Assembly (NCBI GenBank): GCA_001914785.1
Contig: MNDE01000046.1
Coordinates: 1-33,539 of the forward strand
Length of the DNA stretch: 33,539 nucleotides
From: Acidobacteria bacterium 13_2_20CM_57_17
GTDB lineage: Bacteria > Acidobacteriota > Terriglobia > Acidiferrales > UBA7541
Reading direction: 5' to 3'
How positions within the stretch are numbered: position 1 is the first letter of the stretch; each line of letters begins with the position of its first letter. Positions 9,274-28,192 of the stretch are shown in pieces. The notes below the pieces were generated by a model. It was not told the DNA's origin. It saw only the letters and a program-made list of their open reading frames with translations, and searched no databases. Position numbers and translations under genes: made by a program.

Positions 9274-9951
9274 GTGGTCGGTTTCCCGACCAGCAGCACG
9301 CGACTTCGTGTTGGGGCATATAACGCCGTGGGCGCGAAAGAGACTCCTGTCCGCGCGCGGGTCCACTGCTATCCGCTCGACTCAAGTTCCGACATCTCTA
9401 AGCTCACCGATGAAGAATTGATGGATTGTCTTAGGTGCGGGGGGCATGAAGCTCTCACCGTTTTATTTGACCGGTACCACCATCTTGTGTTCAGCATAGC
9501 TTTGCGAATCGTTCGAGATCCGGGCGAGGCTGAGGAAGTTGTCCAGATCGTGTTTCTCGATATCTTTCGAACCGCGGCAAATTTTGACTCTCGAAAGGGC
9601 ATACTTAAGGGATGGCTCTTGCAGTTCGCCCACCACGGGGCCCTGCACAGGAAGCGGCATCTTGTTGCCAACCACTTCTACCGTTGGGAGGACCTCGAAG
9701 CTGTGTTAGAAGGCGGGGCATGTTCCCCACTGGCATGCGAATCGCCGGAAGTCAAGCGGCTCGCGGAGGAGATGTTGGGGAAACTCAAACCACGTCAGCG
9801 GGCAGTCGTTGAGTTGACGTATTACGAGGGGCTAAGAGCGGAAGAAATTGCTGACCGCTTGGGGGAATCGGTTCACGCAATTCGACACGATCTTTACCGT
9901 AGCCTCGCGGCGCTTCGGGCAGCGTTTGGAAACGGTCATGAAAAGCGATAG
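9274..9951 (+). CDS. ECF RNA polymerase sigma factor
   Basis: Up to 225 residues. Sigma region 2 is at about 65-100 (FDRYHHLVFSIALRIVRDPG, EAEEVVQIVFLDIF) and region 4 at about 170-215 (LKPRQRAVVELTYYEGLRAE, then an HTH in IADRLGESVHAIRHDLYRSL). It should direct transcription of the receptor/protease set downstream. The true start is unclear: GTG at 9274 adds about 40 residues before the conserved part and has no good ribosome-binding site. The anti-sigma gene starts inside its last codons (14-base overlap), typical of sigma/anti-sigma pairs. Equivalent FecI-type genes accompany receptors in proteobacterial lasso clusters. Confidence 0.9.
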   Translation: MVGFPTSSTRLRVGAYNAVGAKETPVRARVHCYPLDSSSDISKLTDEELMDCLRCGGHEALTVLFDRYHHLVFSIALRIVRDPGEAEEVVQIVFLDIFRTAANFDSRKGILKGWLLQFAHHGALHRKRHLVANHFYRWEDLEAVLEGGACSPLACESPEVKRLAEEMLGKLKPRQRAVVELTYYEGLRAEEIADRLGESVHAIRHDLYRSLAALRAAFGNGHEKR

Positions 9952-11314
9952 CAAACTTGTGCGAGCTGCCATCCGCCTCTGGCCAAAAAGCCATGGACGT
10001 TATAAAGAAATGTGTGCATTGGCGGCCACGGCCCAGCTTCGCGGGAAAGAAATGAGTGAATTGAACGCACATATCTCCACCTGCGATTCGTGCCGCGAGT
10101 TTTTGTGGTCTGTGGGACAGGTAAGCGTGCAGGTGATGCCATTGCTCGCTGAAAATGGCGCGCCTGCGGCGGACATTGTCCCGCCGGACGGCATGCGCGC
10201 GAGGTTCCTGTCACGAATTGGTTCGGAAGAGTTGGTCAACGAAATCAATGGAGGGTCGCGCCTGCACCCGTTTGTTCGCGAAAAGCCATTGTCGTCAAGG
10301 TTTGGAAAAGAACGGGATGGAGAACAGGTTATATATGTCGAACCCGCTCCCTCAGAGCCAAAATCGAGTCTGTTTTGGTTGCTCTCGCCCTCCGCGGCGG
10401 TGATGGCGGTTTGCGTGATTGTAGGCACTGTGGCGTTCTATGCCGGCATGTGGAAAGGCAAGAACACACCGCAGCGACCGACCCAGGTGAAGGCACCAAG
10501 CACTGTGGCACCAGAGCGTACCTCCCAGGAGGGTGACGCTGAAAGGTTGAGTCAGCTTGGGGCGCAAAAATCCGAGCTAGAAAGAACGCTTGCGAAGCTG
10601 AAACGGGAGCTTTCGACTTTGCAGAGCGAAAAACAATCGCTGAGTGATGAGTTGACGACAGCCAAAGACAAACTCGCTACGCTTACGATCCAAGCGAAGA
10701 GTGCATCGGAGCGCTCCTCTACCGAGCTTCAGGATGCGCAAAATAAGGTAGCGACACTTCAAAACCGGGTCGAGGTACTCAGCGAGCGATTCGCAGAGTC
10801 CGAAGTCAAACTTGGTGTGCAGAGACAAATGACCGAGGATCTGGCAGCGAAGCTTGACACGACGGAAGAGGATCTCCGACGTCAGAACGATCTTAAGTCG
10901 GCCAAGCTGGAGTTGGGTGATTTAGTAGCCGCACGGAACCTGCACATCGTGGACGTTTACGATGCGGATTCAAACGGGAAGCGGCAACGGTCGTTTGGGC
11001 GAGTTTTTTATGTTGAAGGGAAATCACTCGTGTTTTATGCCTATGATTTGGACGCCCCCGGTCAGTTCAAAGCAAATGTGGTTTTTCATGTCTGGGGTGA
11101 GAAGGCCGGCGTTAAAGAGGTGGCGCATAGCCTGGGCGTTCTCCACAAAGACAACGGTCAAAGTCGTTGGGCGATGACGTTTGATGATCCAAGGGTACTT
11201 GTTAAGATTAATTCAGCGTTTGTAACGACTGAAGTTGACAGCAAACAGCACAACGAACCCCACGGCAAAAAAGTTCTTTACGCCTACTGGGGAAATCAAC
11301 CAAACCATCCATAG
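9938..11314 (+). CDS. Membrane-anchored zinc-finger anti-sigma factor
   Basis: A 458-residue protein starting MKSDSKLVRAAIRLWPKSHG. Residues about 30-55 contain HISTCDSC, the zf-HC2 metal site that binds the cognate sigma factor in the cytoplasm. A single membrane helix follows (LFWLLSPSAAVMAVCVIVGT, about 145-170), then a long coiled coil (about 190-320, heptad-rich LERTLAKLKRELSTLQSEKQ), and a C-terminal periplasmic domain (about 325-455) with RVFYVEGKSLVFYAYDL, resembling the RskA-type anti-sigma sensor domain. It overlaps the sigma gene by 14 bases. A start at 9848 would overlap far more and is less likely. It probably relays a signal from the envelope to the sigma factor. Confidence 0.85.
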   Translation: MKSDSKLVRAAIRLWPKSHGRYKEMCALAATAQLRGKEMSELNAHISTCDSCREFLWSVGQVSVQVMPLLAENGAPAADIVPPDGMRARFLSRIGSEELVNEINGGSRLHPFVREKPLSSRFGKERDGEQVIYVEPAPSEPKSSLFWLLSPSAAVMAVCVIVGTVAFYAGMWKGKNTPQRPTQVKAPSTVAPERTSQEGDAERLSQLGAQKSELERTLAKLKRELSTLQSEKQSLSDELTTAKDKLATLTIQAKSASERSSTELQDAQNKVATLQNRVEVLSERFAESEVKLGVQRQMTEDLAAKLDTTEEDLRRQNDLKSAKLELGDLVAARNLHIVDVYDADSNGKRQRSFGRVFYVEGKSLVFYAYDLDAPGQFKANVVFHVWGEKAGVKEVAHSLGVLHKDNGQSRWAMTFDDPRVLVKINSAFVTTEVDSKQHNEPHGKKVLYAYWGNQPNHP

Positions 11315-11465
11315 TTGGCTTCCCGTTAGCCGGTCTGCATCAACCACAAACTATCTCCAAGGATTGTCCTTCCGCCTGTTCACGGACAGATCGAAATTAT
11401 TTGAATTTTCGATGGCGAATTCGTCGCGGATGGCGGCCACCTAAGGGACAAGGGAAGGTCACTCG

Positions 11466-14400
11466 ATGATGACACTGCCTCGTCTCCTGCGGATCGCCAG
11501 TCCGTCGTTATTCGTCGTCATATGGTTTGCCAGTGCTGTCATGGGACAGACTGAGACCGCTACGGTTTCGGGGCTGGTCACAGATCGGACAGCTGCCGCC
11601 GTGTCTGGAGCGGAAGTGCGGCTTCAAAGTGCCGAGCGTGGGACGGTCACAACCACGACTACGAACAATTCTGGTATCTATGTTTTTCCAAACGTTCAGC
11701 CTGGCCAGTACCAAATCAGTATCCAAAAGCAGGGATTTAAGCAGGTAGATTTGCTTGGCCTCATTGTCAATATTCAGGATCACATTGATCAAAACTTCAG
11801 GCTGGAGGTTGGCTCGGTCAACGAGAGCGTAACAGTCGAGGCGGGCGCGTCTATGATCAATACGATGGATGCGTCGGTCAGCACAGTGGTTGATCAGACG
11901 TACGTAAAAAACATGCCGCTCAATGGGCGCAGCTTCCAGGATTTAATCCTGCTCACGCCGGGGGTTGTAACGCAAACGCCCCAAGCTAATAACCCAGGGG
12001 TGACCGGCCTTGGAATGACTGGTGAGTTCAGTGTGAATGGCCAGCGACCGGAATCGAACTATTACACGGTGGACGGTGTAAGCGCTAATGGGGGGGCAAC
12101 TGCGGGTTTGAATATGGTGATCGGGGCAGGCCCTAGCGGTTCAGTGCCTACGGCGACGGCTTTGGGAACCACGCAGGCTCTCGTCTCCATTGATGATCTC
12201 CAGGAGTTTCGTGTGCAGAGTTCGACCTATTCCGCTGAGCATGGGCGCAATCCGGGTGGCCAATTTGCGTTCGAGACAAAATCAGGCACCAATCAATGGC
12301 ATGGCACGGCATACGACTACTTGCGTAATGGGGCGATTGATGCCCAGGACTGGTTCAACGATTACTTTGGTAAGCCGGAACCTGCCCTTCGGCAGAACGA
12401 TTTCGGCGGCACACTGGGCGGACCAGTCAGAATTCCTGGCCTGTACAACGGTAAAGACAAGACATTCTTCTTTGTTTCGTATGAGGGGCTGCGTCTGGTT
12501 GCGCCACAGGCAGCAACAGTAACCTTCGTGCCGGATGCTGCTCTGCGCGCGAACACGGTTGCACCTCTGAACCAGGTGCTGAATGCTTTCCCTGTGCAAA
12601 GCCCCAATGGCATAGACGACACGGCGCATGGGGTTGCTCAATTTATCGGAAGTTGGTCGAACCCGAGTTCGATCGATTCGACGAGCGTCCGGCTTGACCA
12701 AGTCGTGAACGATAAGCTGAGGCTCTTCGTCCGATTCAGTAACGTCCCTTCCAAGTCGACGATTCGGGAAACACAGCCCACCGGTGGAAATCCATCAATG
12801 AGCCAAACTACAGCCTATACCCCGCGGAGCTATACAGCGGGCGCCAGTAGCGTCTTCGCGAGCCGCCTCAGCAACGAGTTTCGCCTCAATTACAGTTCGA
12901 ACGAAGTGACGGCTCGTGCTGTCATCGATTCATTCGGGGGCAGCACACCTGTCGATCTGGCGCAACTCACAGGGTCCAGCGTTGACAGCCAGCCAGAAGT
13001 CATCCTTCAGTATGCTGGGTATCGCATTGTTATGCTTCAGCAGCGGATATCAGCGGTTCAAAGACAATGGAATCTCGTGGACACAGTGGACCTCTCTTGG
13101 GGACGTCATCACTTCAAGTTTGGGATCGATTATCGTCGGCTTACTCCGATTGCGACTCCACCTAATTCAGCCCACCTGTTTGACTACTTTAGCGTGGCTG
13201 CTGTCCAAGCGAACCGGGCCCTCACAATAGCCGTTAGTACTGTTCCTTTCTACCCGCTGTACACAAACTTCTCGGCGTTTGCGCAGGATGAATGGAGAAT
13301 GTCACACAAGCTAAGCCTCTCCTTGGGACTGAGGTGGGATGTAAACCCGGCGCCCGGTGTAACTCAAGGTTCGAACGCTTATACCGTTCAAGGGTCCGGC
13401 CCCAATACGTGGGCGCTGGCGCCGCAGGGCACGCCATTATGGCAGACTGCCTGGTACAACTTTGCACCGCGCCTTGGTGCCGCATATATTCTCCGCGGCA
13501 CGCCGGGCCGGGAAATAGTTGTGCGGGGCGGTGGCGGTGTCTTCTTCGATACCGGTCAACAGCAGGGATCGTTCGGCTTCGATGGGCCAGGTTTCCAGGC
13601 AGTAAAGGTTCAGCCTGGAGCGTTTCCTTCGCCTGCAGCGCCTTCTCCTGTCATTGTGAACCCGCCTGTGCCGGGTTCGTACGGCGCTCAACCCATTGTA
13701 TTCCCAGCGCACCTGCAGCTGCCGTATACGCTTCAGTGGAACGCCAGCATCGAGCAGGCGCTGGGCAGCTCACAGGTTCTTACGGTTTCGTATGTAGGGG
13801 CGCACGCAGGGAGATTGCTGAGAGAAGCTCAAATTTCAACGCCCAGCAACCCAAATGCAAAGACGTTTCTCTTTGTCGATAGTGGACTGATGTCGGATTA
13901 CGACGCGCTGCAGATTCAGTTCCGTCGGAGATTGAGCAGGGGGCTAACGACGTTGGCTTCGTATACGTGGTCGCACTGCATGGACTACGGGTCACAAAAT
14001 TATACGTTGGGATATCAACGGGGTAATTGCGATTTCGATGTTCGGCATAATTTTTCGACTGCTTTTTCTTACGACCTACCGAATCTTGGAGAGAACAGGT
14101 TTCAACGGGCCGTGTTTCACAATTGGGGTCTCGACGACCGTCTAACCGCGAGAACTGGTTTTCCGATTACGCTAAACGGAAATCAGAACTTTGATTCTGC
14201 AACGGGACAATCGTTCAACTCCGGGCTCGATCTAGTTTCGGGCCAGTCCGTCTATTTGTATGGCTCCAATTGCACCTCTGTTCTCCAAGGGATGGGAGAC
14301 CTTCTTCCGGGACAAGGATGTCCGGGAGGCCGCGCGATTAACCCCAATGCGTTCGCTCCTCCGGCTTCTGGTCTGGGAAACGCGCCTCGCAACTTTGTGA

Positions 14401-14684
14401 GGGGTTTTGGAGCTTGGCAGATGGATCTGGCGCTCCGGCGGGATTTTCCAATCCATGAAGGGCTGAAGCTCCAGTTCCGTGCCGAGGCATTTAATATTTT
14501 CAATCATCCGAATTTCGGAACCATTAGCGCGTTCTGTGGTGGCACTCCAGGCGTACCTGGTTGCACAAACCGGCAATTCGGCCAGGCTACAGGCACGCTT
14601 GCAAGTACGCTGGGAGTCCTGAGCCCGCTTTACCAACAAGGCGGGCCACGCTCCATGCAGTTTGCTCTGAGATTAGTTTTCTAA
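11466..14684 (+). CDS. TonB-dependent Oar-like outer-membrane receptor
   Basis: A 1072-residue receptor. A signal peptide is visible (LLRIASPSLFVVIWFASAVM, cut near MGQ). A carboxypeptidase-regulatory-like domain follows (about 30-115, TVSGLVTDRTAAAVSGAEVR), then a plug (about 120-240, VDQTYVKNMPLNGRSFQDLI), then a long beta barrel ending in a terminal phenylalanine (MQFALRLVF), the usual outer-membrane assembly signal. GGAAGG lies 9 bases before the ATG. It is preceded by sigma/anti-sigma genes and followed 18 bases later by a secreted protease, so the set probably takes up and degrades one peptide-like substrate. Given the facing biosynthetic genes, the likely candidate is the cluster's own RiPP. 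Confidence 0.92.
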   Translation: MMTLPRLLRIASPSLFVVIWFASAVMGQTETATVSGLVTDRTAAAVSGAEVRLQSAERGTVTTTTTNNSGIYVFPNVQPGQYQISIQKQGFKQVDLLGLIVNIQDHIDQNFRLEVGSVNESVTVEAGASMINTMDASVSTVVDQTYVKNMPLNGRSFQDLILLTPGVVTQTPQANNPGVTGLGMTGEFSVNGQRPESNYYTVDGVSANGGATAGLNMVIGAGPSGSVPTATALGTTQALVSIDDLQEFRVQSSTYSAEHGRNPGGQFAFETKSGTNQWHGTAYDYLRNGAIDAQDWFNDYFGKPEPALRQNDFGGTLGGPVRIPGLYNGKDKTFFFVSYEGLRLVAPQAATVTFVPDAALRANTVAPLNQVLNAFPVQSPNGIDDTAHGVAQFIGSWSNPSSIDSTSVRLDQVVNDKLRLFVRFSNVPSKSTIRETQPTGGNPSMSQTTAYTPRSYTAGASSVFASRLSNEFRLNYSSNEVTARAVIDSFGGSTPVDLAQLTGSSVDSQPEVILQYAGYRIVMLQQRISAVQRQWNLVDTVDLSWGRHHFKFGIDYRRLTPIATPPNSAHLFDYFSVAAVQANRALTIAVSTVPFYPLYTNFSAFAQDEWRMSHKLSLSLGLRWDVNPAPGVTQGSNAYTVQGSGPNTWALAPQGTPLWQTAWYNFAPRLGAAYILRGTPGREIVVRGGGGVFFDTGQQQGSFGFDGPGFQAVKVQPGAFPSPAAPSPVIVNPPVPGSYGAQPIVFPAHLQLPYTLQWNASIEQALGSSQVLTVSYVGAHAGRLLREAQISTPSNPNAKTFLFVDSGLMSDYDALQIQFRRRLSRGLTTLASYTWSHCMDYGSQNYTLGYQRGNCDFDVRHNFSTAFSYDLPNLGENRFQRAVFHNWGLDDRLTARTGFPITLNGNQNFDSATGQSFNSGLDLVSGQSVYLYGSNCTSVLQGMGDLLPGQGCPGGRAINPNAFAPPASGLGNAPRNFVRGFGAWQMDLALRRDFPIHEGLKLQFRAEAFNIFNHPNFGTISAFCGGTPGVPGCTNRQFGQATGTLASTLGVLSPLYQQGGPRSMQFALRLVF

Positions 14685-14702: not shown

Positions 14703-17147
14703 ATGAAATCGTGTCTTCCCCTGAAATGGCACGGCTTTATCCACAGAGGGAAGGCTATATCCAGACTCTGGGGCATTGAATCAGCTTTCGTCGTTGCGAT
14801 GAATCCAAAAGAGAAGCTGATGTTTCCGAGAAAAAAGAAGCTCGTCTTGTTCCTTATCCTTGCTCCTGGATGCATTGGTTGCATTACGCCAGAAATCGCA
14901 TTTGCGCAACAGGCTAGCGCATTGCCCGTAGAGGACGTTCTTCGGGAGCGCTCTTTTGCGCAATTGTCTTCCATCGAGTTTTCTCCTGATGGCAAATGGT
15001 TGGTTTACGGTGTCGAAGGTCAAGAAGAAGCCAAGCCGAATGAAAAAGAACCGGAGCCTCGGAGAGTGGTTTCCGAGTATGTGAGGGGTGAGAACGTTTG
15101 GCTCTTGAATATCGAAACAGGCGAGGCAAGGAACCTCACGAGCGGAAAAGGCAAGAACTGGCACCCGACATGGTCTCCTGATGGAAGATTCCTTGCGTTT
15201 CTCTCAGATCGTGAGGGGGGTGGGCGGGCGCTAATGTGGATTTGGGATGCGACGAAGGATGCCTTGAACAAAGTTCCAGACATCGATGTCGACACATGGC
15301 AGCCGATGAAGTGGACGCCTGATAGTCGCAGTATCTTTGTGACTGTAAAACCGCAGCGCTTGTCTGCTGGCGCGTCTGAGAAAAGGAAAGAGTCCGACGC
15401 CGAACCCGAGAAACCTGCCGGACAAAAAGAGCAAGGTCCAACTCTGCATCTGTACCAATCGAGTTTCACCGGGCCGCGCGACAGGGAAGGTCCGCAATCC
15501 GATCCTTGGGATCTGAATCGATTCTTGCGGGACCTAGTTAAGGTTGACGTTGTTACGGGCCAGACTCGAGTATTGGTTCACGATCAGAGAATTCAAGCAT
15601 ATAAGATTTCATCCGATAGTTCACGCGTCGCGTATGCAGTTGAGAAACGGTTTGAGAAACCGGGATCACAGCAGTTACTTTACGACCTTGTGGTACTAGC
15701 ACTTTCGACGATGAAAGAACGAGTCGTCGCGGCGGACGTCCGACTCAGCGATGGGGACTTCAGTTGGTCGCCGGACATGCAGCTGATCAGCTATCAACCG
15801 GATGGGCCCGAGGAGAAGATTCGTGACTGCTACATCGTCAACGCAGAGGGAGGACCTCCACAAAATATATCAAAATTCTTGCCTTTGCAGCAATCACGTC
15901 GTGGTTATTCATCAGTTCCATTGTGGGACAGGAGTGGCCGTTATACTTATTTTCTCCATGATGGAGCATTATGGCGGGCTTCCGTCAGCGAAGGCAAAGC
16001 ATGGCAGATCGCTCGCATCCCAAATCATCAGATCAATTTGTCCATTTCACAATCCCATGACTTGTTATGGACGGACGGTGGAAACTCGACCGTAATTGTA
16101 GCGCATGACGATGTCGGGAAACAGGACGCGTTCTACAGGATCAACTTGGAGAACGGGGAAAGTGTCAAGCTTGTAGAAAACGGTGAGTGTTACACTTGCA
16201 CGGCCATGCAGCGCCCAATTGCGGTGGCGCGAAATGGAAAACAATTAGCGTATGCGGCAGAAGATGCCAAGCGTGATTCTGATCTCTGGCTGAATGATGC
16301 AACTTTTAAACACCCTCGGCGGCTCACACATCTCAATCCTCAGTTCGACAACTATAAGTTGGGGGCCGCCCGGCTTATTGACTGGCTCAGCGACGATGGC
16401 GAGCGGTTGCGAGGAGCTTTGCTATTACCCTCCGACTATCAGGAAGGGAAGCGCTACCCTCTCGTCGTTTGCGTTTATGGTGGGGCGCATCTCTCCGAGA
16501 GTTTCGATCTGTTCGGGCTTAATAGTAATGCAGCCGTACACCCACAATTGTTGGCCACCCGTGGCTATGCAGTGCTCCTGCCAGATTCACCGGCGCACGA
16601 AGGAACACCGATGGCTGATTTGGCAAAGACGGTGCTGCCAGGAGTGAATAAGGTCATCGAGATGGGAATAGCGGATCCAGAGCGGTTAGGAGTGATGGGA
16701 CACAGCAACGGAGGCTACAGCACGCTGGCACTGATCGTCCAGACCAAGCGGTTCAAGGCTGCCGTTAGCGTGGACGGCATGGGAGATCTAGTTGCTACAT
16801 ACGGCGGGATGAAAAAAGACGGAGCAGCGTTCGGAACCTCGTTGGAATCCAGCCAAGACGCCATGGGTGGAACTCCCTGGCAAGTTCGAGAAAGATATAT
16901 CGAGAATTCCCCGTTCTTTTATCTGGATAGAGTCCAGACGCCATTGTTGATTGTGCACGTGGCCGGTGACCCCGTAGTCCCGTCATTTCTAGGCGATCAG
17001 ATTTTTGTGAGTCTTCGAAGGCTTGGGAAAGAGGTCGAGTACGCCAAATACGATGGCGAGAGTCACGCGCCGAGGGGTTTTGTAAATCAAGTGGACCACA
17101 TCAATCGTATGCTCGCTTGGTTTGAAAAATATCTTCAGCCCAACTAA
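14703..17147 (+). CDS. Secreted S9 prolyl-oligopeptidase-like protease, candidate lasso isopeptidase
   Basis: An 814-residue S9 serine protease. A beta-propeller occupies about residues 80-540, with repeated WSPDGRF/FSPDGKW blades; an alpha/beta-hydrolase domain follows. The nucleophile is Ser668 in GVMGHSNGGYS; Asp756 in HVAGDPVVP and His788 in GESHAPRG complete the triad. The ATG at 14703 has a good GGAAGGG site, but the signal peptide (MFPRKKKLVLFLILAPGCIG ... AFA/QQ) starts about 40 residues in, so starts at 14799 or 14820 are serious alternatives. Lasso isopeptidases of the astexin type belong to this fold and are encoded beside TonB receptors. Here an ordinary Asp serves as acid, so general peptide degradation cannot be excluded. 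Confidence 0.88.
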   Translation: MKSCLPLKWHGFIHRGKAISRLWGIESAFVVAMNPKEKLMFPRKKKLVLFLILAPGCIGCITPEIAFAQQASALPVEDVLRERSFAQLSSIEFSPDGKWLVYGVEGQEEAKPNEKEPEPRRVVSEYVRGENVWLLNIETGEARNLTSGKGKNWHPTWSPDGRFLAFLSDREGGGRALMWIWDATKDALNKVPDIDVDTWQPMKWTPDSRSIFVTVKPQRLSAGASEKRKESDAEPEKPAGQKEQGPTLHLYQSSFTGPRDREGPQSDPWDLNRFLRDLVKVDVVTGQTRVLVHDQRIQAYKISSDSSRVAYAVEKRFEKPGSQQLLYDLVVLALSTMKERVVAADVRLSDGDFSWSPDMQLISYQPDGPEEKIRDCYIVNAEGGPPQNISKFLPLQQSRRGYSSVPLWDRSGRYTYFLHDGALWRASVSEGKAWQIARIPNHQINLSISQSHDLLWTDGGNSTVIVAHDDVGKQDAFYRINLENGESVKLVENGECYTCTAMQRPIAVARNGKQLAYAAEDAKRDSDLWLNDATFKHPRRLTHLNPQFDNYKLGAARLIDWLSDDGERLRGALLLPSDYQEGKRYPLVVCVYGGAHLSESFDLFGLNSNAAVHPQLLATRGYAVLLPDSPAHEGTPMADLAKTVLPGVNKVIEMGIADPERLGVMGHSNGGYSTLALIVQTKRFKAAVSVDGMGDLVATYGGMKKDGAAFGTSLESSQDAMGGTPWQVRERYIENSPFFYLDRVQTPLLIVHVAGDPVVPSFLGDQIFVSLRRLGKEVEYAKYDGESHAPRGFVNQVDHINRMLAWFEKYLQPN

Positions 17148-17158
17148 CTATTAATAGA

Positions 17159-17194
17159 CTGTCGGAGCGTCCGCTGTTTTGGACGCTCCGACAG
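17159..17194. terminator. Perfect hairpin between convergent operons
   Basis: CTGTCGGAGCGTCC (17159-17172) and GGACGCTCCGACAG (17181-17194) form a perfect 14-base-pair stem with an 8-base loop. It lies 11 bases after the protease stop and 8 bases after the precursor stop on the other strand, the place for a bidirectional terminator. No strong T-run follows on either side, so termination may need Rho, or the hairpin may chiefly protect the 3' ends. Confidence 0.7.
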
Positions 17195-17202: not shown

Positions 17203-17352
17203 TTAGCTTTCCCAGTCTGCGTAACCATTGGTAGATTCGTTTTGGAATTGGCTATCCAGTGGTTGCGTTGTGCTTCCCTTATTTGGTCCGGTACCCTGAA
17301 TAGCATTGATCGCGGGCGTCAATGCAGTCAGTTCTGGATTTTCATATTTCAT
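17203..17352 (-). CDS. Lasso-type RiPP precursor peptide
   Basis: A 49-residue peptide. The leader has Y3, P6 and L8 (MKYENPELTALTPAINAIQG), the YxxPxL pattern that PqqD-like B1 proteins bind in lasso systems. In the C-terminal half the only glycine with an acidic residue 7-9 positions on is Gly26, with Asp33 at position 8. A Gly1-Asp8 ring (GSTTQPLD) with a 16-residue tail rich in N, S, Q and acidic residues, ending GYADWES, is the best prediction. The usual Thr at leader position -2 is missing (Asn there). An excellent GGGAGGTGA ribosome-binding site precedes the ATG. It is last in the gene train, 43 bases after the second cyclase gene, so it may have its own promoter. The class is inferred; another cyclase-made RiPP is possible. 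Confidence 0.72.
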   Translation of the reverse strand: MKYENPELTALTPAINAIQGTGPNKGSTTQPLDSQFQNESTNGYADWES

Positions 17353-19425: not shown

Positions 19426-21345
19426 CTAACCTCGTATGGAAGCGTGGAGTATCAACTCAGACTTCGGCGTCGTCTCCATATTCATGACACCTAAGGTGCG
19501 AAGATTCCTGAGCCACTCTTCCACGAAGATCGTACGCATCAACGTGACCATGGGAACTTCTTCGCCGCGCCGCGCCTTCTGCAAGGTAGCCGAAAAATGT
19601 TCTGAGTCAACAATTCCCAGCGAAGTGCTCACCATGTGCTGGGTCATCTCCGCCCAATGGGTCCATTCCTTCGAGATACGCACCAGGGGCGTCCGGGCGA
19701 CGAACGCTTTCCCCTTCTTGTTCAGGATCTCGTCTGGAACGATGCCAACGAGTGCGCGACGCATCAGGGAGCGGCGTTGGGTCGGGCGGACCAGTTGCTC
19801 CCGCGGAATCGCGAACATAAATTCCAGCAGGCCGCGGTCCAGATAGGGATAACGTTTCTCGAATGGCGGTTCGAATGGCAAAGCGGTACGCGCCAGTTGC
19901 CTTCGCAATCCATTCACCATGCTTATGTTGTCCTGGAAGCTCGGCAGGGGACCGAACAGCTTCGTCCGGGAGGGATAGCCTGTAAGCGTGGCCCAGTGCC
20001 GCTTCACATAGTTGGGCTGCAGCCACGCAACCGGCCGCATGTATTTCGGGACGCCAACGAGCCTGGGAGGAAAGAATCCCCGCGCCGCTTCCCAGAACAG
20101 ATGGAGCCATGGCTTTCTTTTTTCCAGCGCCCATACTTTCAGTTGATGAGCGAGCCCCCGGAATTGTGCTCTTGCGAGAAGATCTTCGAGTTCCGGTGTC
20201 GGTGTCGGCACGCCACCCATAGTCTCGTCGCCACCCATGCCGGAGAGCACGACGCGATTCCCTTGCGAGGCTAGGCACATCCCGAATTGGGGGGAAGGGC
20301 GGCCATCGTAGCCGGGAGTTGGCACAAAGCGCGTGTTAGGAGATTCAGGACGTCGTTGGGACGCGGGCCCTTTTTCCAGGCCGACGTCGATGTGCCAGCC
20401 GGTGCGGCCCCGTTTTTCTTCGACTTTGGTGAAATAGGGGCGTTCGTTCCAGTTGGGTTCGGAGTCGTCGTAGTAGGACATCGTATCCAGGCGCGGGGTT
20501 TCGGCGCCGCCACGGGCGATGACCCTATCGGCCATGCAAACGATGGAGGAGGAGTCCCGCCCGCCGCTAAGTTCGGCGAGCACCGGTCTATCGGAACGGA
20601 GTTTATGCTGAACGGCCTTCGCGAAGACAGTGCGGAAGTGCTCCTCGTATTCGGCGTCGGTGCGGTAACGGATACTCTTGGTGGGATCGAAATCCCAATA
20701 TTTGCTGACCGTGTGCTTTCCGGGGCGGAGCAACACGGACGAAGACGGCGGGACAGCATGAATACCAACGCAGGGTGTCAGATGCACGGCCGGAAACATA
20801 GAGAACCAGCCGGCGATGTACTCTTCGTTGAGTGCGAAGGTTTTGCCAGCAAACCGGACGAGTGGATCGAGGACTGTGCTCCAGGTGACCTGATTTTTGT
20901 CGAACGAATAGTAGAGATGGCGCGTACCGATGGGATCTTTGACCAGGAGCAATGACCGGTCGACAGGGCTCCAGATAGAAAGAGCCCAATCGCCGATAAG
21001 TTTGGCATAGAAATTGGCGCCCCATTTTTCGTAAGCCGCAGCAACAATAGCAACGTCTGTAGAATCGAAGGCCAGAACGTTTCTCAGTTCGCTGATAAGC
21101 TCGGCGCGGTTGTCCAAGCGGCCGTCCCAGGTGATCACCGCGCCCGACGGAGATATGTGTGGCTGCGTTTCGCGATGCGATTCTTTCGTGGTCCGGAAGG
21201 CGCGATAGAGGATGTGTACGCCACCCTTGGAATACGTCTCATTGCTATCAGGTCCATACGGAGCAAGAGCCGCACTGACCTTCTCGACGTAGTCAGGGCC
21301 AGGAGGTTGGCCTTCAAAATTCCATCTTCCAAACTGCACGCTCAT
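19426..21345 (-). CDS. Asparagine-synthetase-like RiPP cyclase, first copy (lasso C type)
   Basis: A 639-residue protein with the same two domains as its neighbour. The N-terminal glutaminase-like fold (about 1-210) has no Cys2. The synthetase domain carries LSGGRDSSS (259-267) and the conserved GMGGDE (369-374), so its ATP and metal site looks complete. It is the best candidate for the enzyme that activates Asp33 of the precursor and forms the isopeptide ring. GGAAGGG lies about 9 bases before the ATG. It begins 31 bases after the B2 leader protease and is followed by its paralogue, showing tandem duplication. Ordinary asparagine synthesis is unlikely, because the glutamine site is missing and RiPP genes surround it. 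Confidence 0.88.
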   Translation of the reverse strand: MSVQFGRWNFEGQPPGPDYVEKVSAALAPYGPDSNETYSKGGVHILYRAFRTTKESHRETQPHISPSGAVITWDGRLDNRAELISELRNVLAFDSTDVAIVAAAYEKWGANFYAKLIGDWALSIWSPVDRSLLLVKDPIGTRHLYYSFDKNQVTWSTVLDPLVRFAGKTFALNEEYIAGWFSMFPAVHLTPCVGIHAVPPSSSVLLRPGKHTVSKYWDFDPTKSIRYRTDAEYEEHFRTVFAKAVQHKLRSDRPVLAELSGGRDSSSIVCMADRVIARGGAETPRLDTMSYYDDSEPNWNERPYFTKVEEKRGRTGWHIDVGLEKGPASQRRPESPNTRFVPTPGYDGRPSPQFGMCLASQGNRVVLSGMGGDETMGGVPTPTPELEDLLARAQFRGLAHQLKVWALEKRKPWLHLFWEAARGFFPPRLVGVPKYMRPVAWLQPNYVKRHWATLTGYPSRTKLFGPLPSFQDNISMVNGLRRQLARTALPFEPPFEKRYPYLDRGLLEFMFAIPREQLVRPTQRRSLMRRALVGIVPDEILNKKGKAFVARTPLVRISKEWTHWAEMTQHMVSTSLGIVDSEHFSATLQKARRGEEVPMVTLMRTIFVEEWLRNLRTLGVMNMETTPKSELILHASIRG

Positions 21346-21376: not shown

Positions 21377-21751
21377 TCAGCACCTGTCGAGCACTCCATA
21401 GAGTTCCGGCGTATACGGCTTATCGTTGACCACGAGGCCATCGACTTCAACCCAGGCGTGGGCCTTGAAGGGCATTTGCAGCGCACCGATGACCATCTGA
21501 GCAGGTACTCCATACCGCTTCAAAAGACACGCGGCTGCCGCCGACCGCTGCAAGCAAAGCGCTTCTTTCCAATACCAGATACAAGCCATGTCTACCGCGG
21601 CACAGATTCGTTCGACAGCTTCGGGAGATGGAGCTTTCTTCCCAACGGGATATCTTCGGACCTCGTTGTACAGGGCGGCGAAATTCCCACGCGCCAAGTA
21701 CAGATCAAAGTGAATCAACTTCAAATACGCTTTAATAACAAGAAACGACAT
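21377..21751 (-). CDS. Transglutaminase-like leader peptidase (lasso B2)
   Basis: A 124-residue protein matching lasso peptide biosynthesis B2 proteins. These are transglutaminase-fold cysteine proteases that cut the leader off the precursor with the help of B1. The triad is readable: Cys66 (EALCLQRSAAA), His98 (FKAHAWVEV) and Asp110 (LVVNDKP). The final GVPAQMVIGA strand is typical of the family. The ATG at 21751 was preferred because AAGGAAG lies 8 bases upstream; a start at 21796 would overlap the preceding gene. It is 14 bases from that gene and 31 bases before the first cyclase, so the B2-C-C order is one operon. Confidence 0.88.
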   Translation of the reverse strand: MSFLVIKAYLKLIHFDLYLARGNFAALYNEVRRYPVGKKAPSPEAVERICAAVDMACIWYWKEALCLQRSAAAACLLKRYGVPAQMVIGALQMPFKAHAWVEVDGLVVNDKPYTPELYGVLDRC

Positions 21752-21765
21752 GACCGAGTCTTCCT

Positions 21766-22227
21766 TTAGTTCTGGAATACAGGCTCCAGGAGCCAAGAGT
21801 TCCGCAAACCGGGTGAGAGTCTCGCCGAGTCAAGACTCGATGTTGGGTACGAAGATCCAAGTGTTTCATTTTCGTCTGCAAGCTTTTCCATGGCGAAGGC
21901 ATTGCCCAATTCGGCTGACTTCGTGAGCCACGCGAACCGCGTTTCGAGTGATTTAGGCAAACTATCGCCAATCACCAATCGCAAGCCGGGCTTCTGCATT
22001 GCGTACAAGTCGCTGTCTTGAGAGCGGTTTCGAAGCCATCGCTCGTCTTCACTTGGTGAGCTTTCCAGCCATCCACGGAAGCTCGAAGCCGAAACAGTGT
22101 TCTTGAGGGAAGAATTCCCTTGTCTTTTCAAAAGAACGATGGAGTGCAGACGAAACTCTAACGCCGAAGCCTTAGTGTCAATTTCAGTATTCCTGGCGAC
22201 TGTAGCGGCTGTGTTCGTTACTGTCAT
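21766..22227 (-). CDS. Unknown protein with a Sel1-like repeat
   Basis: A 153-residue protein. The segment RFAWLTKSAELGNAFAMEKL (about residues 97-116) fits one Sel1 repeat (A..WL.KSAE.GNA.AM..L), a helical protein-binding motif. The rest is charged with no membrane segment and I do not recognise it. TGGAGG stands about 9 bases before the ATG, so translation is credible. It lies directly before the B2 gene and may bind or guide a biosynthetic partner, but this is only positional. The upstream 189 bases form one copy of a block that is repeated before the glycosyltransferase. Confidence 0.5.
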   Translation of the reverse strand: MTVTNTAATVARNTEIDTKASALEFRLHSIVLLKRQGNSSLKNTVSASSFRGWLESSPSEDERWLRNRSQDSDLYAMQKPGLRLVIGDSLPKSLETRFAWLTKSAELGNAFAMEKLADENETLGSSYPTSSLDSARLSPGLRNSWLLEPVFQN

Positions 22228-22739: not shown

Positions 22740-23114
22740 TCACCCTGGTGTGAGCTGAGCATCATCGATAAGCAGCAAATATTGCGTGAGAAGTTTAATA
22801 AAGTTCGTTACGTCGCTCGCAGCTCGTTCTTCCGGAATATTATATCGCCGAGCAAGTTGAGCAATGAGCTCGGGAGTTGGTAGGCCAACTGCCAGGTTCT
22901 CCCAAATGAGGGCCGCCACGGGATTCAGTTCAAACACAGGGCGGCCAGCGACTTCTAACGTGGCCTTGCCACCTGGTTGTGACACCAGAAACGCTACTCC
23001 TGATACCTTCATGCCTACCGTCCGCGCCTTTGGACCAAACCTACGAACCAACTCTGATTCAACGATTCGTCCCAGAACTTTCTGTCGAGCCGGTGGTGCC
23101 GTTTCCGAAATCAC
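22740..23114 (-). CDS. PqqD-like leader-recognition protein (lasso B1), second copy
   Basis: Up to 124 residues. The PqqD winged-helix core is clear in FELNPVAALIWENLAVGLPT, ELIAQLARRYNI and RAASDVTNFIKLL. Such proteins grip the precursor leader (Tyr and Pro of YxxPxL) and hand it to the protease. The GTG at 23114 has no good ribosome-binding site and makes a 56-base overlap with the glycosyltransferase. An ATG at 23012 with GGTAGGC upstream would remove the overlap but may trim the first strand. It differs strongly from the other B1 (27866), so the two are old paralogues or have different partners. Confidence 0.8.
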   Translation of the reverse strand: MISETAPPARQKVLGRIVESELVRRFGPKARTVGMKVSGVAFLVSQPGGKATLEVAGRPVFELNPVAALIWENLAVGLPTPELIAQLARRYNIPEERAASDVTNFIKLLTQYLLLIDDAQLTPG

Positions 23115-24795
23115 GAGTCACGGCTTGCAGAGCGCCGCTCTGGTCGCCCGTGACGGTACATTCCTCGTTGCTCGCCACCAGTCCGTACTTGAACAGTCGC
23201 CCAAGACTCCATTGTGCATCAGCGGTCGATACGTGATCGCCGTTCCCGCCCAATGTCTCGACCACTTTCGTAGCCGGGATACCAGGACGAGCAGCGATTT
23301 CGCGCAGCATCTGGTTGAATCTTTGCGGAGTTGGGGGATCGTACAAATGGCAGAGGAAATAGAATCGAGCCGGCCGTTTCAACCATTCTCGTCCCTCGGC
23401 TGTGATGAAACACTTGCAATGCGGATTTCGCTTTCCCGTGGCAAAATGACCAAAACTCTTCTCAAGAGACATGCGGAATACTGCACTCGCAAGATCCTCC
23501 TCGCACGGGGCAGTTTTTGCCGCCTGTATCGATTCTCCCCACACTTCTTCATACCGTTTTACAATCACCGGCCAACTGTAATGCTTTTCTGCAGATTGCC
23601 TTGCTGCCCGTCCCATTTGCCTTCGAAGCGCTGGATTGTGTAAAAGGCTTTGGATCTTCTCAGATAAGACGGGGATGTCGATGGTCGTGGATTGTGCCAA
23701 AGAATCTTCTTCTACCATTGATATCCTGCAGTCGCTTACCTCGAGGGTTTCCAAGCTTGAGGGGAACAAGGATGGAACTAAGAATCCGGTCTCACCGTCA
23801 CTCACTATGTCGCGGTACCCGTCCCAGTCGGAGACCACAGCCGGAAGGCCATAGGATAGTGCCTCTGCAACGGTCAATCCGAAGGTTTCCTGTATATTGT
23901 CGCTGGGCGATACGAAAATATCGGCGCCGGAATACAGCATGTGTTTGTCTCTTGCGGATGGATTCGGCCATATCGTCAAGTTCTGAATACAGCCCAATTC
24001 GTTCGCCAGAGCTTTCAAACGACGCGCTTCATTCGTTTGCTTATCGTCACCTGCAATTACCAAATGGGTATGAGTTTCTCTGCGGGATAGCAATGACAGA
24101 GCGATAAGCATGGGCCCTAAGTCGCCCTTACTCATCTGTGAAAGACGACCAAAAAAAAGAGTTATGGTTTCCTGTGCTCCAATGTTTAGCAGTTGGCGCA
24201 AGTTGATCCGATGCTCAGGCTCCAGGAGTGGAATCGTGACCCCTAGGGGGACAAGAACTCGACGCGGCCGATATGTTATGTTCGGTAGCAACAGCCGACC
24301 GACCTCCTCGATATATACGTCGATCGTTCTCATTCCGGCCCTACTGGAACAAAAAAGGAGATCGGCTTCGCAGAGTCCCGCAAAGTAATGCTGTAAGACC
24401 GCAAAGACGACGCGTTCCGAGTTGATGGAGTGGATTAATCCACACACGGGTGCATCAGGTCGTTGGAGTTTTCGACGGGTTGTTGCCAGCGTTCGTAATT
24501 GTGGATCGAAGGTCGTCAGGACGATTTGGTCAGAATTCGTAATTGGCAACTTGCTTCCAATAGGAACGGCAACTAATCTTTTGACGCTGTCCGCGGTCAA
24601 GCCGTCTTCAATCAACTCCTCCTTCTTTTGGTCTGTAAGCCCCGGTACAAAGTAAGCGTCGTACGTTCCGTATTCAAGTAAGGCGCAGAGAGCGGTCCAC
24701 CCAAACACCCGCGCTCCCATAACCGTTGTCTGATCCCATTGTTCCTGATGACGTTCGGGATTTCTGGGCAAACTAGGAAGGTACAATGCTCTCAT
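23059..24795 (-). CDS. GT4-family glycosyltransferase with C-terminal extension
   Basis: A 578-residue GT-B enzyme. The acceptor-binding half covers about 1-195; the donor half (about 200-440) shows TLFFGRLSQMSKGDLGPMLI, the glycogen-phosphorylase-like loop ETFGLTVAEALSYGLP and GETGFLVPS, all typical of GT4 retaining transferases. About 130 residues beyond the GT fold (about 445-578) hold a helical winged-helix-like segment that I cannot name. GGAGAA precedes the ATG. Lying inside the RiPP gene train, it could glycosylate the peptide or an envelope acceptor; no substrate can be read from sequence. There is no signal peptide, so it acts in the cytoplasm. Confidence 0.85.
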   Translation of the reverse strand: MRALYLPSLPRNPERHQEQWDQTTVMGARVFGWTALCALLEYGTYDAYFVPGLTDQKKEELIEDGLTADSVKRLVAVPIGSKLPITNSDQIVLTTFDPQLRTLATTRRKLQRPDAPVCGLIHSINSERVVFAVLQHYFAGLCEADLLFCSSRAGMRTIDVYIEEVGRLLLPNITYRPRRVLVPLGVTIPLLEPEHRINLRQLLNIGAQETITLFFGRLSQMSKGDLGPMLIALSLLSRRETHTHLVIAGDDKQTNEARRLKALANELGCIQNLTIWPNPSARDKHMLYSGADIFVSPSDNIQETFGLTVAEALSYGLPAVVSDWDGYRDIVSDGETGFLVPSLFPSSLETLEVSDCRISMVEEDSLAQSTTIDIPVLSEKIQSLLHNPALRRQMGRAARQSAEKHYSWPVIVKRYEEVWGESIQAAKTAPCEEDLASAVFRMSLEKSFGHFATGKRNPHCKCFITAEGREWLKRPARFYFLCHLYDPPTPQRFNQMLREIAARPGIPATKVVETLGGNGDHVSTADAQWSLGRLFKYGLVASNEECTVTGDQSGALQAVTRDFGNGTTGSTESSGTNR

Positions 24796-25027: not shown

Positions 25028-26806
25028 CTAAATGTTCTCACTGGAGATGGGGTAGAACCCTTGTCCGCCAGCCGGGGCCGGAGAGTTATGGAGGAGAGCG
25101 TATAGGCCACCATTGCCGACGAGTCGATCATGCGTACCTTGCTCCTCAACGATACCGCCGTTCAGCACAACGATACGATCGACCCATTTGAGCGCTGAGA
25201 TTCGATGCGAAACAAAGACAATCGTCTTGTCAGCGAAGCGCTCGACCAGATTGGTGAAGACTCTCCGTTCGGAAGGTGCATCCAGTGCTGACGTCGATTC
25301 GTCGAGCAGTAGTACGGAGGGGTTCTGAAGCACCAAACGCGCCAGGGCTAGGCGCTGCCGCTCGCCACCCGACAGGAAATTACCTTTTGGGCCGATTGGA
25401 GTATCCCACCCTTGCGGTAGGCAGCTGATCAGTTCTCCGAGATCCGCGGTTTCTAGCGCCCCAAAGAGATCTCTGTTCGTTGCGGAAGGCTTCCCCAGTA
25501 GAAGGTTCTCTTTCAGCGTTCGGTCGAAGAGGACAGCATCCTGCATGAGATAGCATACGTTCGTCCGAAGACTCTCCAGGCGCACGTCTCGAACATCGAT
25601 TCCATCGATGTGAATCGCTCCTTGATTCACGTCGTACAGCCGTGCAATCAGCTTTGTGATCGTACTCTTGCCACTGCCACTTACGCCGACCAACGCGACC
25701 TTCTCACCAGCCTCTAGCTTGAGTTCGAGTCCATCCACTACTGGAGTTGCTTTTCCGTAGGAGAAAGATACTCGCTGCAATTCGACGCACCCTCGAGAAG
25801 AGGAGGGGAAGTGCATTGCGCTCGGGGATTCCGAGACAGTCGGCGTTTTTTCAATGACCTCCACAATTCTCCGAATGCTCGCGCTCAGGCGGTTAAACCG
25901 AGAATAAATGTCCACAGCAGCATTCAATGGATCAAACAATCGCGCCAGATAACTGTAGAACGCAACCAGCCCACCGACAGTCAATGCTCCAACGAACACC
26001 TCGTAACCGCCGTAACCGAGAGTCGCTATGGTCCCGAGCGCAATCACTGCCATGTAGCAGGTCCTGAACAATGTCTCTGTCAGAGTCCTGTGATTCAATG
26101 CCTTCATTCTTGCTGAGGCCCGCTCAAGGAACGCTTGGACTTGACTTCTCTCCCGGCGCAAGAGCTGGATTTGGATGACGGACGCCAAATGTTCCTGCAG
26201 GAAGCTGCTCTCTCTACTTGATTGCTGTTGCGCGCTGTCAGATGCCTGCCGCAATTGGCCTTCGAAGCGCCTTCTGAAAACGAAGAAAAGAGGCATAAGC
26301 GGTAGAAGGAGAATAGTCAGCCGAAAATCAAGGAAGAACATTGTTCCGATGACGAAAAAAGCGTTGAACGTCGTTTGGAGAACGTAGGGCACAAGGCTTG
26401 ATCCCAGTTCCGCCACCTGGTCCACATCCTGCTCCATTCTGTACAGCTTTTCACCAATTGGCGTCGATTCGTGGAAATCCGCAGAGAGAAGATTCATGTG
26501 CTCTAAGATATCGAGCCGAATGCGGAAAACGAGATTCTGGACGGTCCGGAAGCTCACCATGCCCGCAAGCGCGGAAAAGCCTAACCGACAGACATAGATT
26601 CCCAAGAACGCCCCCGCCGCAAGCAAGAGCAGACGTATGTCTCTTTTCGGCAAGACCTTGTCGATCAGCCATTTGATAAGGAGAGGATCGAGCAGAAACA
26701 TCAAGCTGCTCAGCACGATCAGAGACACACTCAGGAGGTGCGCCCGAAGGAGGGGCCGCAACTTGCGGACAAACCATTGAAGCTGCGAGTTGGACTTCAG
26801 AATCAA
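25028..26806 (-). CDS. ABC exporter (fused membrane and ATPase domains)
   Basis: A 592-residue half-transporter of the lasso D type. Six membrane helices fill about the first 320 residues (from LSVSLIVLSSLMFLLDPLLI). The ATPase part has Walker A GVSGSGKST, the signature LSGGERQRLALARL, Walker B VLLLDES and the switch histidine VSHR. Such exporters expel the mature peptide and often provide self-immunity; no C39 peptidase domain is present, consistent with leader removal by B1/B2. The TTG at 26806 was chosen because GGAGGAG lies 6-7 bases upstream; the longer TTG start at 26851 has none. It is followed by the duplicated block and the glycosyltransferase. Confidence 0.88.
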   Translation of the reverse strand: MILKSNSQLQWFVRKLRPLLRAHLLSVSLIVLSSLMFLLDPLLIKWLIDKVLPKRDIRLLLLAAGAFLGIYVCRLGFSALAGMVSFRTVQNLVFRIRLDILEHMNLLSADFHESTPIGEKLYRMEQDVDQVAELGSSLVPYVLQTTFNAFFVIGTMFFLDFRLTILLLPLMPLFFVFRRRFEGQLRQASDSAQQQSSRESSFLQEHLASVIQIQLLRRERSQVQAFLERASARMKALNHRTLTETLFRTCYMAVIALGTIATLGYGGYEVFVGALTVGGLVAFYSYLARLFDPLNAAVDIYSRFNRLSASIRRIVEVIEKTPTVSESPSAMHFPSSSRGCVELQRVSFSYGKATPVVDGLELKLEAGEKVALVGVSGSGKSTITKLIARLYDVNQGAIHIDGIDVRDVRLESLRTNVCYLMQDAVLFDRTLKENLLLGKPSATNRDLFGALETADLGELISCLPQGWDTPIGPKGNFLSGGERQRLALARLVLQNPSVLLLDESTSALDAPSERRVFTNLVERFADKTIVFVSHRISALKWVDRIVVLNGGIVEEQGTHDRLVGNGGLYALLHNSPAPAGGQGFYPISSENI

Positions 26807-26954
26807 AATTCTCCTCCGACTCTTCGGACAGTCACCTTGAAGTTCATGCAAGTCGCCGAGGCCGCAATTTGGAGGTCATAGACGTCCGTTGTCCAAGCGG
26901 ACTAAGTCGCTTCTCACAGCTCCCTGCGACCCTCCATCGAAACAGAGTCTGGCT

Positions 26955-27398
26955 CTACGCTGCACGCTTGTTCTGGCGCCAGACCGCCCTGAATTCTGTC
27001 GGGCTCAGGAGAAAGAGGCTTTTGAAGCTTCTTCCGAATTCGGCGGTTCTTTCATACCCGGCATCCGCTGCAATCGCCTTGATCGGCACAGTCGTTGTCT
27101 TCTTCAACTGTTCTGCAGCGAAGGCAAGACGGCTTTTTTTCAAGTATTCCTTGAAACCAATTCTCATCGCACGTCGGAAAACCCGGCGAGCTTGGCGCCC
27201 CGACAAAGCAAGACCAAGCTGTTTACATATGTTGTCAAGGTTGCAATCAACCTTCCCGGGATGATTGTCGATGAAATCTGTGATCTTCATTGCGCGCCAG
27301 TCCGGATGACCAGGGACATGGGATATTCGCTGAGAAACGCGATCAAAGAAATGACCTACACTGTCCAACACTCGAATTATAGGATGCTCATAAATCAT
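26955..27398 (-). CDS. AraC-type DNA-binding protein with leader-like N terminus
   Basis: A 147-residue protein. The C-terminal 100 residues form an AraC double helix-turn-helix (CKQLGLALSGRQARRVFRRA; IKAIAADAGYERTAEFGRSF). There is no ligand-binding domain. Its first 14 residues (MIYEHPIIRVLDSV) look like a lasso leader (Y-x-x-P-x-I-x-x-L). The ATG at 27398 has an excellent GGGGGAAG site; a start at 27464 has not. It probably regulates the cluster. If the leader likeness is real, a B1 protein could bind it and link precursor level to gene expression, but chance similarity is possible over so few residues. Confidence 0.75.
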   Translation of the reverse strand: MIYEHPIIRVLDSVGHFFDRVSQRISHVPGHPDWRAMKITDFIDNHPGKVDCNLDNICKQLGLALSGRQARRVFRRAMRIGFKEYLKKSRLAFAAEQLKKTTTVPIKAIAADAGYERTAEFGRSFKSLFLLSPTEFRAVWRQNKRAA

Positions 27399-27558
27399 CG
27401 GACTTCCCCCATGACTGCTAGCTATTTCTAGGGCTGGGCTGACGTTTCCTTCACTGGGTGACATCGCGCCATATCGGGATGGGTATCGATGAACTTGTTG
27501 AGTGTCTCGAGTCCTCCTCTTCTATTTGAGTGCTTCGTTTTTCCTACTGTGGGCTAGA

Positions 27559-27864
27559 TTAGTCCGAGAACGGGTACGCGATTGCTAGATGACAGATTCC
27601 CTCCCGAGCCACAGTTCCATCGGCAATGGCGGTGGTCCTGAACGGAAGCATTCGACAGCAGTGGCAGAAAAGAATTACACACCGAGCGTATTGCGCGTAG
27701 CTCTTGCGCGGAGACTGGCACCCACGGAGAGAAATGCAATAACGACTCGCGCAAAATTCCAGCAAGTTAGAGTTGGACAGAGTGTCGTCCGAATCAAAGG
27801 TCCAGGCCGCCGGCGCATTCGACAGTTCGGTTGTCACGAAGGCACGCCATGAATTCCGAAACAT
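27559..27864 (-). pseudogene. Possible decayed gene after the first B1
   Basis: An ATG one base after the B1 stop, preceded by GGGG, opens 101 residues (MFRNSWRAFVTTEL ...). The product is cysteine-rich and lacks a clear fold. Near its end CRMLPFRTTAIADG recalls the R.LPFRT.CL..A segment of B2 proteases, and B2 normally follows B1, so this may be a frameshifted B2 remnant; the catalytic Cys is not where it should be. It could also be a real unknown coupled gene. The 160 bases from 27399 to 27558 hold nothing I can identify. Confidence 0.3.
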
Positions 27865-27865
27865 G

Positions 27866-28192
27866 TCAACCCCGCGCTCCGGCGGCCTTGGATTCGTGTA
27901 ACAGGCCGTTCCGTTGAACAAGCCCCGTATGTTCCAGCTTAGCTAGGTACTCCTTGATGTCGCGTTCGAGCTGCTCACGAGAGATTGTGTAATGAGTTTC
28001 CATCACATCCACGAGCCCGCGAAGGTCGACTCCTGAAGGGCTCGCTTCCACTGTGCTCCAGACACGTGCAGCGACTGGGTTGAGGCTGTAGCAGAGCCCC
28101 TTTTGAATATCGAGAAGCACAGCGCCATCCTCTGAATATGTGGAACGGACGTCTAAGGAAGCCAGCCACTTAGCGTTGGAATTCGTTTTCAC
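27866..28192 (-). CDS. PqqD-like leader-recognition protein (lasso B1), first copy
   Basis: A 108-residue PqqD-fold protein. The strands VRSTYSEDGAVLLDIQKGLC and the core YSLNPVAARVWSTVEASPSG are textbook B1; helices LRGLVDVMETHY and ERDIKEYLAKLEHTGLV follow. It should bind the leader of the RiPP precursor. GTG at 28192 was chosen because GGAGGG lies 6 bases upstream; the frame extends to a TTG at 28300, but that region is occupied by a hairpin. It is the first recognisable gene of the minus-strand set, with a possible regulatory leader just upstream. Confidence 0.85.
   Translation of the reverse strand: MKTNSNAKWLASLDVRSTYSEDGAVLLDIQKGLCYSLNPVAARVWSTVEASPSGVDLRGLVDVMETHYTISREQLERDIKEYLAKLEHTGLVQRNGLLHESKAAGARG

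Follow-up and report, generated by a model that had tools for sequence, protein, structure and literature searches.

The window analysed here, which is the whole 33,539-nucleotide contig MNDE01000046.1 of Acidobacteria bacterium 13_2_20CM_57_17 (contig 44 of a draft genome of 191 contigs, 77.6% complete), carries a cluster for a lasso-type ribosomally synthesised and post-translationally modified peptide (RiPP) that its producer probably makes, exports, takes up again and linearises. Two arms, one for synthesis on the minus strand and one for retrieval on the plus strand, converge on one hairpin, and the retrieval arm comprises an extracytoplasmic function (ECF) sigma factor, an anti-sigma factor, an Oar-like outer-membrane receptor and an exported S9 protease. 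The case for this scheme draws on the gene content, on the co-occurrence of the arms in related genomes, on the co-inheritance of a sensing module and on a promoter-like motif before the receptor gene in 16 relatives.

Distribution of the two arms and the S9 protease

Gene families were assigned by Pfam and NCBIfam profile scores against curated cut-offs. When the window S9 was used as a protein query against 101 genomes, matches were found in six, and in the four genomes with the closest copies the S9 gene is convergent with, and adjoins, a lasso cyclase gene. A wider search with a cyclase profile against 399 genomes of the class gave matches in 49, and cultured Granulicella, Terriglobus and Silvibacterium were added as carriers from a named collection; the named relatives that carry such clusters are Acidobacteria, chiefly Terriglobia. 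The locus counts given below are not independent, and two locus pairs are near duplicates.

The preliminary description of this DNA had staked its two-arm reading on joint occurrence in related genomes, and this is what was found: a convergent S9 gene and receptor gene are present in 48 of the 50 lasso loci with at least 4 kb beyond the cyclase, in one orientation and at a median of 427 bases after it. All four arm genes are present in 31 of 37 loci with a 9.5 kb flank, and some of the others have a protein of about 1000 residues instead. In L081 (17886-20909), L082 and L193, such a protein replaces the sigma and anti-sigma factors, and in L081 it starts with an ECF sigma domain (Pfam). The retrieval arm is absent from more remote lasso-type loci that belong to other families (L084, L210-L212).

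By alignment, the catalytic triad of the window S9 is S668, D756 and H788. The active-site Ser and His are kept in all S9 proteins except the aberrant L183, while the window lineage has Asp as the catalytic acid and the AtxE2-like lineage has Glu at the corresponding position. As many of these proteins have no GxSxG motif, they were suspected of being pseudo-enzymes, an idea that was rejected because the nucleophile lies in GFSRT-like elbows and Ser and His are kept. The lasso-linked S9 proteins span at least three lineages, one of which groups in the tree with alphaproteobacterial AtxE2-type enzymes; two relatives' proteins exceed the 400-bit curated cut-off of the lasso isopeptidase family NF033523 (438 and 400.5 bits), and one matches AtxE2 at 1.9e-56. 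The place and conservation of the window protein suggest that it may be an isopeptidase. "Astexin-type isopeptidase", however, is too strong a name for it, as it scores 134.5 bits against NF033523, its closest solved relative is a generic S9 peptidase, and its clade is separate from AtxE2. A fold search with its model (predicted local distance difference test score, pLDDT, 64) was tied, with SpI-IsoP (Z 27.8) among other S9 enzymes.

Sensing module, proposed mechanism and rival explanations

The anti-sigma factor consists of a cytoplasmic zinc-binding HxxxCxxC motif, one transmembrane (TM) segment, a periplasmic coiled coil and an RskA-type C-terminal domain. The window protein has no Pfam match above cut-off, its orthologues match zf-HC2 and RskA_C, and a low-confidence model gives the order helix, TM segment, coil and beta. 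In the receptor, residues ~30-118 form a CarboxypepD_reg signalling domain, which is followed by the plug and the barrel, with a module boundary near 137-150. The sister genome G027 is 96.7% identical to the window over 20.8 kb, up to a break at receptor codon 137. There (G027:C7; L053, L054), the sigma factor, the anti-sigma factor and the receptor N-domain of window positions 8691-11877 have been replaced together (31, 28 and ~39% identity, respectively), and homology resumes further out; the synthesis arm is ~97% identical despite this swap. Across 34 loci, the distances of sigma factor, anti-sigma factor and receptor N-domain agree with one another (rho 0.80-0.88; partial Mantel 0.85, p=0.0005), whereas the N-domain agrees poorly with its own plug (0.12) and its own barrel (0.06), and plug and barrel agree at 0.87. 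Judged from sequence, the sigma factor, the anti-sigma factor and the receptor N-domain are thus one exchangeable module, independent of the barrel of the same receptor. In the few non-lasso cassettes the agreement is weaker (0.32, 21 pairs). The RskA-like domain may be the part of the anti-sigma factor to which the N-domain signals, and the module offers a sequence-level handle on how a receptor that has no recognised signalling domain might communicate with a ZAS-type anti-sigma factor.

The generic ECF promoter GGAAC-N-CGT was not enriched. A motif derived from k-mers before the receptor gene, TGRTAC-N17-CGTAGAC, is promoter-like and lies between the anti-sigma and receptor genes in 16 loci; it has 19 matches in total in the 1.19 Mb scanned, none of them before synthesis genes. 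Because the motif precedes the receptor gene and no synthesis gene, the sigma factor probably drives retrieval and not both arms.

In the scheme that we favour, B1 would bind the YxxPxL leader, B2 would cut after Ile(-2)-Gln(-1), and the C2 cyclase, with C1 as a degenerate partner, would activate an Asp and join it to an amine to form a macrolactam, the amine probably being that of a conserved Lys and not of residue 1 of the leader-defined core. The ABC exporter would release the product, which the Oar-like receptor would bind outside the cell, alone or with cargo. Through its N-domain, the receptor would then report occupancy to the anti-sigma factor's RskA-like domain, freeing the sigma factor to drive the receptor-S9 operon, and the periplasmic S9 would open the peptide, ending the signal. 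The ring chemistry, the substrate of S9, the identity of the ligand and the direction of the signal are the parts of this scheme that we infer.

The retrieval arm could instead be a generic nutrient cassette that merely abuts the lasso genes, with an S9 that degrades dietary peptides. We consider this unlikely, even if the same sigma/anti-sigma module also serves an amylase-linked receptor and the window S9 resembles an S9 carboxypeptidase. An S9-bearing cassette without lasso genes also exists: in L223 (7934-15589, G067), an orphan ECF sigma factor, anti-sigma factor, receptor and S9 arm stands with no lasso genes nearby, possibly as an eavesdropper. Against the nutrient explanation, the arm accompanies nearly all lasso loci in a single orientation, while S9 is found in one of seven cassettes with the same sigma, anti-sigma and receptor genes and no lasso genes (another, a starch-type cassette, has the amylase), and the S9 of two relatives scores above the curated isopeptidase cut-off. 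As the arm has S9 in lasso loci, and S9 once and amylase once among those seven, it appears to be a substrate-sensing cassette of general use, to which S9 has been added where it stands beside lasso genes. A further explanation, which we find distinctly improbable, is that both arms form one regulon in which the sigma factor activates synthesis and retrieval together. Their adjacency and co-occurrence would suit it; however, the promoter motif is found only before the receptor, the sigma block was swapped in G027 with no matching change in the synthesis arm, and AraC and HTH regulators are present in the synthesis arm itself. Of the single circuit that had been described for the two arms, the linkage of S9, receptor and sigma/anti-sigma genes to the lasso genes is supported (48 of 50 loci), and co-regulation of the arms is not supported.

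Several observations weigh against the favoured scheme itself. The window S9 groups with L053, L062, L063, L071 and L179 (support 0.999) in a clade apart from AtxE2, and S9 distances do not track those of the other arm genes (rho 0.0-0.19), which is odd for an enzyme with a dedicated substrate; co-diversification of S9 with the receptor or the cyclase, considered as a candidate, gave no signal. Some of the co-inheritance of the module may stem from the proximity of the genes and from recombination at the conserved plug; physical linkage does contribute, yet the break sits inside the receptor gene and not at its start. The window sigma factor belongs to a different type, and no promoter for it was found. 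Finally, similar-looking metagenomic clusters gave no product in E. coli (PMC12670498), and no product is known.

Cyclases, precursors and the predicted ring

Both cyclases are asparagine-synthase-type proteins whose best NCBIfam match is lasso cyclase, with scores below the 525-bit cut-off (Table 1). B2 exceeds the lasso B2 cut-off (NF033537, 75.2 versus 33 bits), and two PqqD-type B1 proteins and a YxxPxL leader are also present. The machinery is lasso-type, but the term "established lasso set" overlooks the precursor, whose core (after a cut behind Ile-Gln) has no Asp or Glu at positions 7-9. C1 and C2 form one clade each, derived from a single duplication. Every C2 protein keeps the Asp of the GGDE motif, as do the other cyclases (55 of 55), but it is lost in six of seven C1 proteins, including that of the window; for this reason, C1 is disfavoured as a second working cyclase and looks degenerate, and C2 is the likely cyclising enzyme. 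Over the C-terminal half of C2 (19250-20500), DNA identity to the sister genome falls to 81-84%, compared with 98% in the region around it, a dip that suggests local gene conversion.

The acids of the window core are at positions 14 and 20; a changed cut site would restore an acid at 7-9. Asp or Glu at 7-9 is likewise absent in 50 of 78 unique related precursors and present in 28. These precursors keep Tyr(-17), Pro(-14), Ala(-6), Ile/Val(-2) and mostly Gln(-1) in a fixed register, followed by a small residue at +1 (Gly in 38/78, Ser in 19/78). An early Lys with an Asp or Glu 6, 7 or 8 residues later (35, 21 and 13 precursors) is found in 69 of the 78, and the remaining nine are all canonical, with an acid at 7-9, so that none has neither pattern; in the window, the pair is Lys6 and Asp14 (spacing 8). 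The pair is not in register with the leader, as the leader-to-Lys distance varies by up to 8 residues. The pattern holds in 58 of 66 clusters of precursors below 50% identity; testing the first Lys gave 66 fits in 72, compared with 20.1 +/- 3.6 in shuffles; and the first acid from position 7, chosen without regard to Lys, tracks Lys (r 0.74; permutation maximum 0.40). Spacing 8 is seen in 12 of 16 two-cyclase precursors and in 1 of 52 others, these sequences being related; the spacing thus follows cyclase type, as would be expected if it were set by the enzyme.

From these patterns, Lys probably supplies the ring amine. With a B2 cut at the fixed site, this would be the amine of its side chain; with a trimmed N-terminus, Lys would supply it as residue 1. 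In the latter case, B2 or a second peptidase would cut further downstream in most clusters, giving an ordinary 7-9-residue alpha-amine ring; this touches the ring only and not the two-arm scheme, and we regard it as a serious possibility, a little short of an even chance. With Lys as residue 1, spacings of 6, 7 and 8 correspond to ring sizes of 7, 8 and 9, and metanodin accepts Asn1, which means that the constraint on residue 1 is looser than was assumed (PMC12670498). On the other hand, the fixed register of Ile/Val(-2), Gln(-1) and the small +1 residue, despite the sliding Lys, indicates a fixed cut. We also put forward, as a tentative and rather doubtful proposal, that lasso-type cyclases join the side chain of the conserved Lys, and not the N-terminal amine, to the Asp or Glu 6-8 residues on; the resulting macrolactam would have a free end on either side and a linkage new among RiPPs, and it would be retrieved and opened by the facing S9 under the exchangeable sensing module. 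The failure to find predicted canonical products could be due to the Lys-acid pattern, which also supplies exact masses for searching: for the window core less one water, the predicted mass is 3197.381 Da with side-chain linkage (GTGPNK...WES) and 2771.195 Da with Lys as residue 1 (KGST...WES).

The precursor C-terminus is conserved too (AYEADE or GYADWE types) and might be a recognition tag. In two-cyclase precursors (L055-L058, L064 and the window), the C-terminal Tyr is preceded, at a distance of five or six residues, by a conserved Asn-[Glu/Asp]. This motif is not a feature of one-cyclase precursors and is possibly linked to C1 or to glycosyltransferases. No second precursor for the second cyclase was found in the window. 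A second lasso cluster of the same genome (L050, G000:C17:1-20000) has three canonical Gly1-Glu9 precursors and its own facing S9 arm. Upstream of B2, relatives (L055-L061, L064, L071 and others) carry an APH-like kinase together with a true prolyl oligopeptidase, or else GT8/GT4 or GH92/GH127 enzymes, which suggests phosphorylated or glycosylated products; apart from GT4, the window has none of these.

Gene layout and known systems

All the named genes are open frames at the places first given, with the precursor corrected to 17203-17352 and the likely start of the anti-sigma gene to ATG 9938, and those of the preliminary description belong to the families stated there, except for the "Sel1-like" gene, which is doubtful because it has no family match and its frame is broken in the 97%-identical sister locus. 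The hairpin between the arms is borne out as a 14-bp perfect stem (17159-17172/17181-17194) with an 8-nt loop. The precursor start is preceded by a good ribosome site, GGGAGGTG. The two HTH regulators at the far end lie past the span first described and belong to the conserved neighbourhood. An imperfect intergenic repeat of ~190 bp (~73% identical) precedes the Sel1-like frame (22223-22411) and GT4 (24824-24997). Rfam and tRNA scans of the window gave no matches.

Table 1. Features of the cluster, with positions in the window
Feature	Position	Strand	Remarks
ECF sigma factor	9274..9951	+	Sigma70_r2/r4 matches, Pfam 49 bits; start codon uncertain; adjoins anti-sigma in most relatives
Membrane anti-sigma factor	9938..11314	+	HxxxCxxC, one TM; likely start ATG 9938
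Oar-like outer-membrane receptor	11466..14684	+	OMP_b-brl_4 475 bits, CarboxypepD_reg 61 bits
Exported S9 protease, proposed isopeptidase	14703..17147	+	Peptidase_S9 91 bits; likely start ATG 14820
Perfect inverted repeat, probable bidirectional terminator	17159..17194	.	Between the arms, from sequence
Precursor MKYENPELTALTPAINAIQ/GTGPNKGSTTQPLDSQFQNESTNGYADWES	17203..17352	-	ATG start, 49 aa, YxxPxL leader
C1 cyclase paralogue, degenerate GGDE motif (GGEV)	17396..19372	-	Lasso cyclase NCBIfam 272 bits
C2 cyclase paralogue, intact SGGRDSS and GGDE	19426..21345	-	Lasso cyclase NCBIfam 250 bits
B2 leader peptidase, transglutaminase-like	21377..21796	-	NF033537; likely ATG 21751
Doubtful "Sel1-like" frame, possibly decayed	21766..22227	-	No family match
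B1, PqqD-type leader-binding protein	22740..23114	-	PqqD 45.7 bits
GT4 glycosyltransferase, C-terminal extension	23059..24795	-	Glycos_transf_1 93 bits
ABC exporter, fused permease/ATPase	25028..26851	-	Family profile match
AraC-type HTH regulator	26955..27464	-	HTH_18 60 bits
Second B1, PqqD-type	27866..28300	-	PqqD 49.7 bits
HTH regulator a	28795..29676	+	Weak HTH_19; adjoins many related clusters
HTH regulator b	29833..30642	+	Paralogue of HTH regulator a, 45% identical

Isopeptidase clusters have been described mainly from Alphaproteobacteria (PMC13352647), with a near-constant layout and a biological role called enigmatic (PMC9266682). Those of astexin, sphingopyxin and benenodin type resemble the window in their convergent sigma factor, anti-sigma factor, TonB receptor and S9 isopeptidase, which face C, B2 and the precursor (PMC9266682), and the same order, likewise convergent, recurs in plasmid records from Asticcacaulis, Novosphingobium and Sphingobium, with a FecR-type anti-sigma factor and AtxE2. 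The convergent layout is therefore already known and the parts are a variant. For instance, the window has split B1/B2, a precursor after C and beside S9, a duplicated C and GT4; its anti-sigma factor is of ZAS/RskA type and not FecR, its regulators are AraC and HTH and not GntR, and there is no FecI/FecR pair. It differs additionally in its Oar-like receptor, ABC exporter, Ile(-2) and Lys-acid core. The rubrinodin cluster, like the window, has both an ABC exporter and a retrieval arm but, unlike it, a FecI/FecR pair; it was described as the lone exporter-bearing exception among isopeptidase clusters (PMC9266682), and the combination recurs among the acidobacterial loci studied here.

Neither acidobacterial lasso peptides with an isopeptidase nor Lys-linked lasso rings were found in the open-access literature, to which the search was confined, so priority is uncertain. 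Lasso precursors with Ile/Val(-2) have already been published for Acidobacteriaceae (PMC10368454). The bsf cluster of Bradymonas shares the YxxPxL leader and Ile/Val at -2 but keeps Gly1-Asp8, and the paper does not mention an isopeptidase or a TonB receptor (PMC10368454). Soil-metagenome cluster 482.1 has B1, an APH kinase, B2, C and precursors, like clusters studied here, and Group II clusters have a prolyl oligopeptidase between core genes (PMC9064862, PMC12670498); an unnamed 2118-bp gene after the 482.1 precursors would fit S9 by size and place. Acidobacterial clusters from metagenomes were cloned and gave no product, and the main text of these papers contains neither the retrieval arm nor module exchange nor the Lys-acid pattern (PMC9064862, PMC12670498). 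The class-wide acidobacterial set, including cultured Granulicella, Terriglobus and Silvibacterium, makes the question of making, sensing and retrieving testable. Set beside these systems, the overall layout of the cluster is known, and its precursor pattern and sensing module are unusual.

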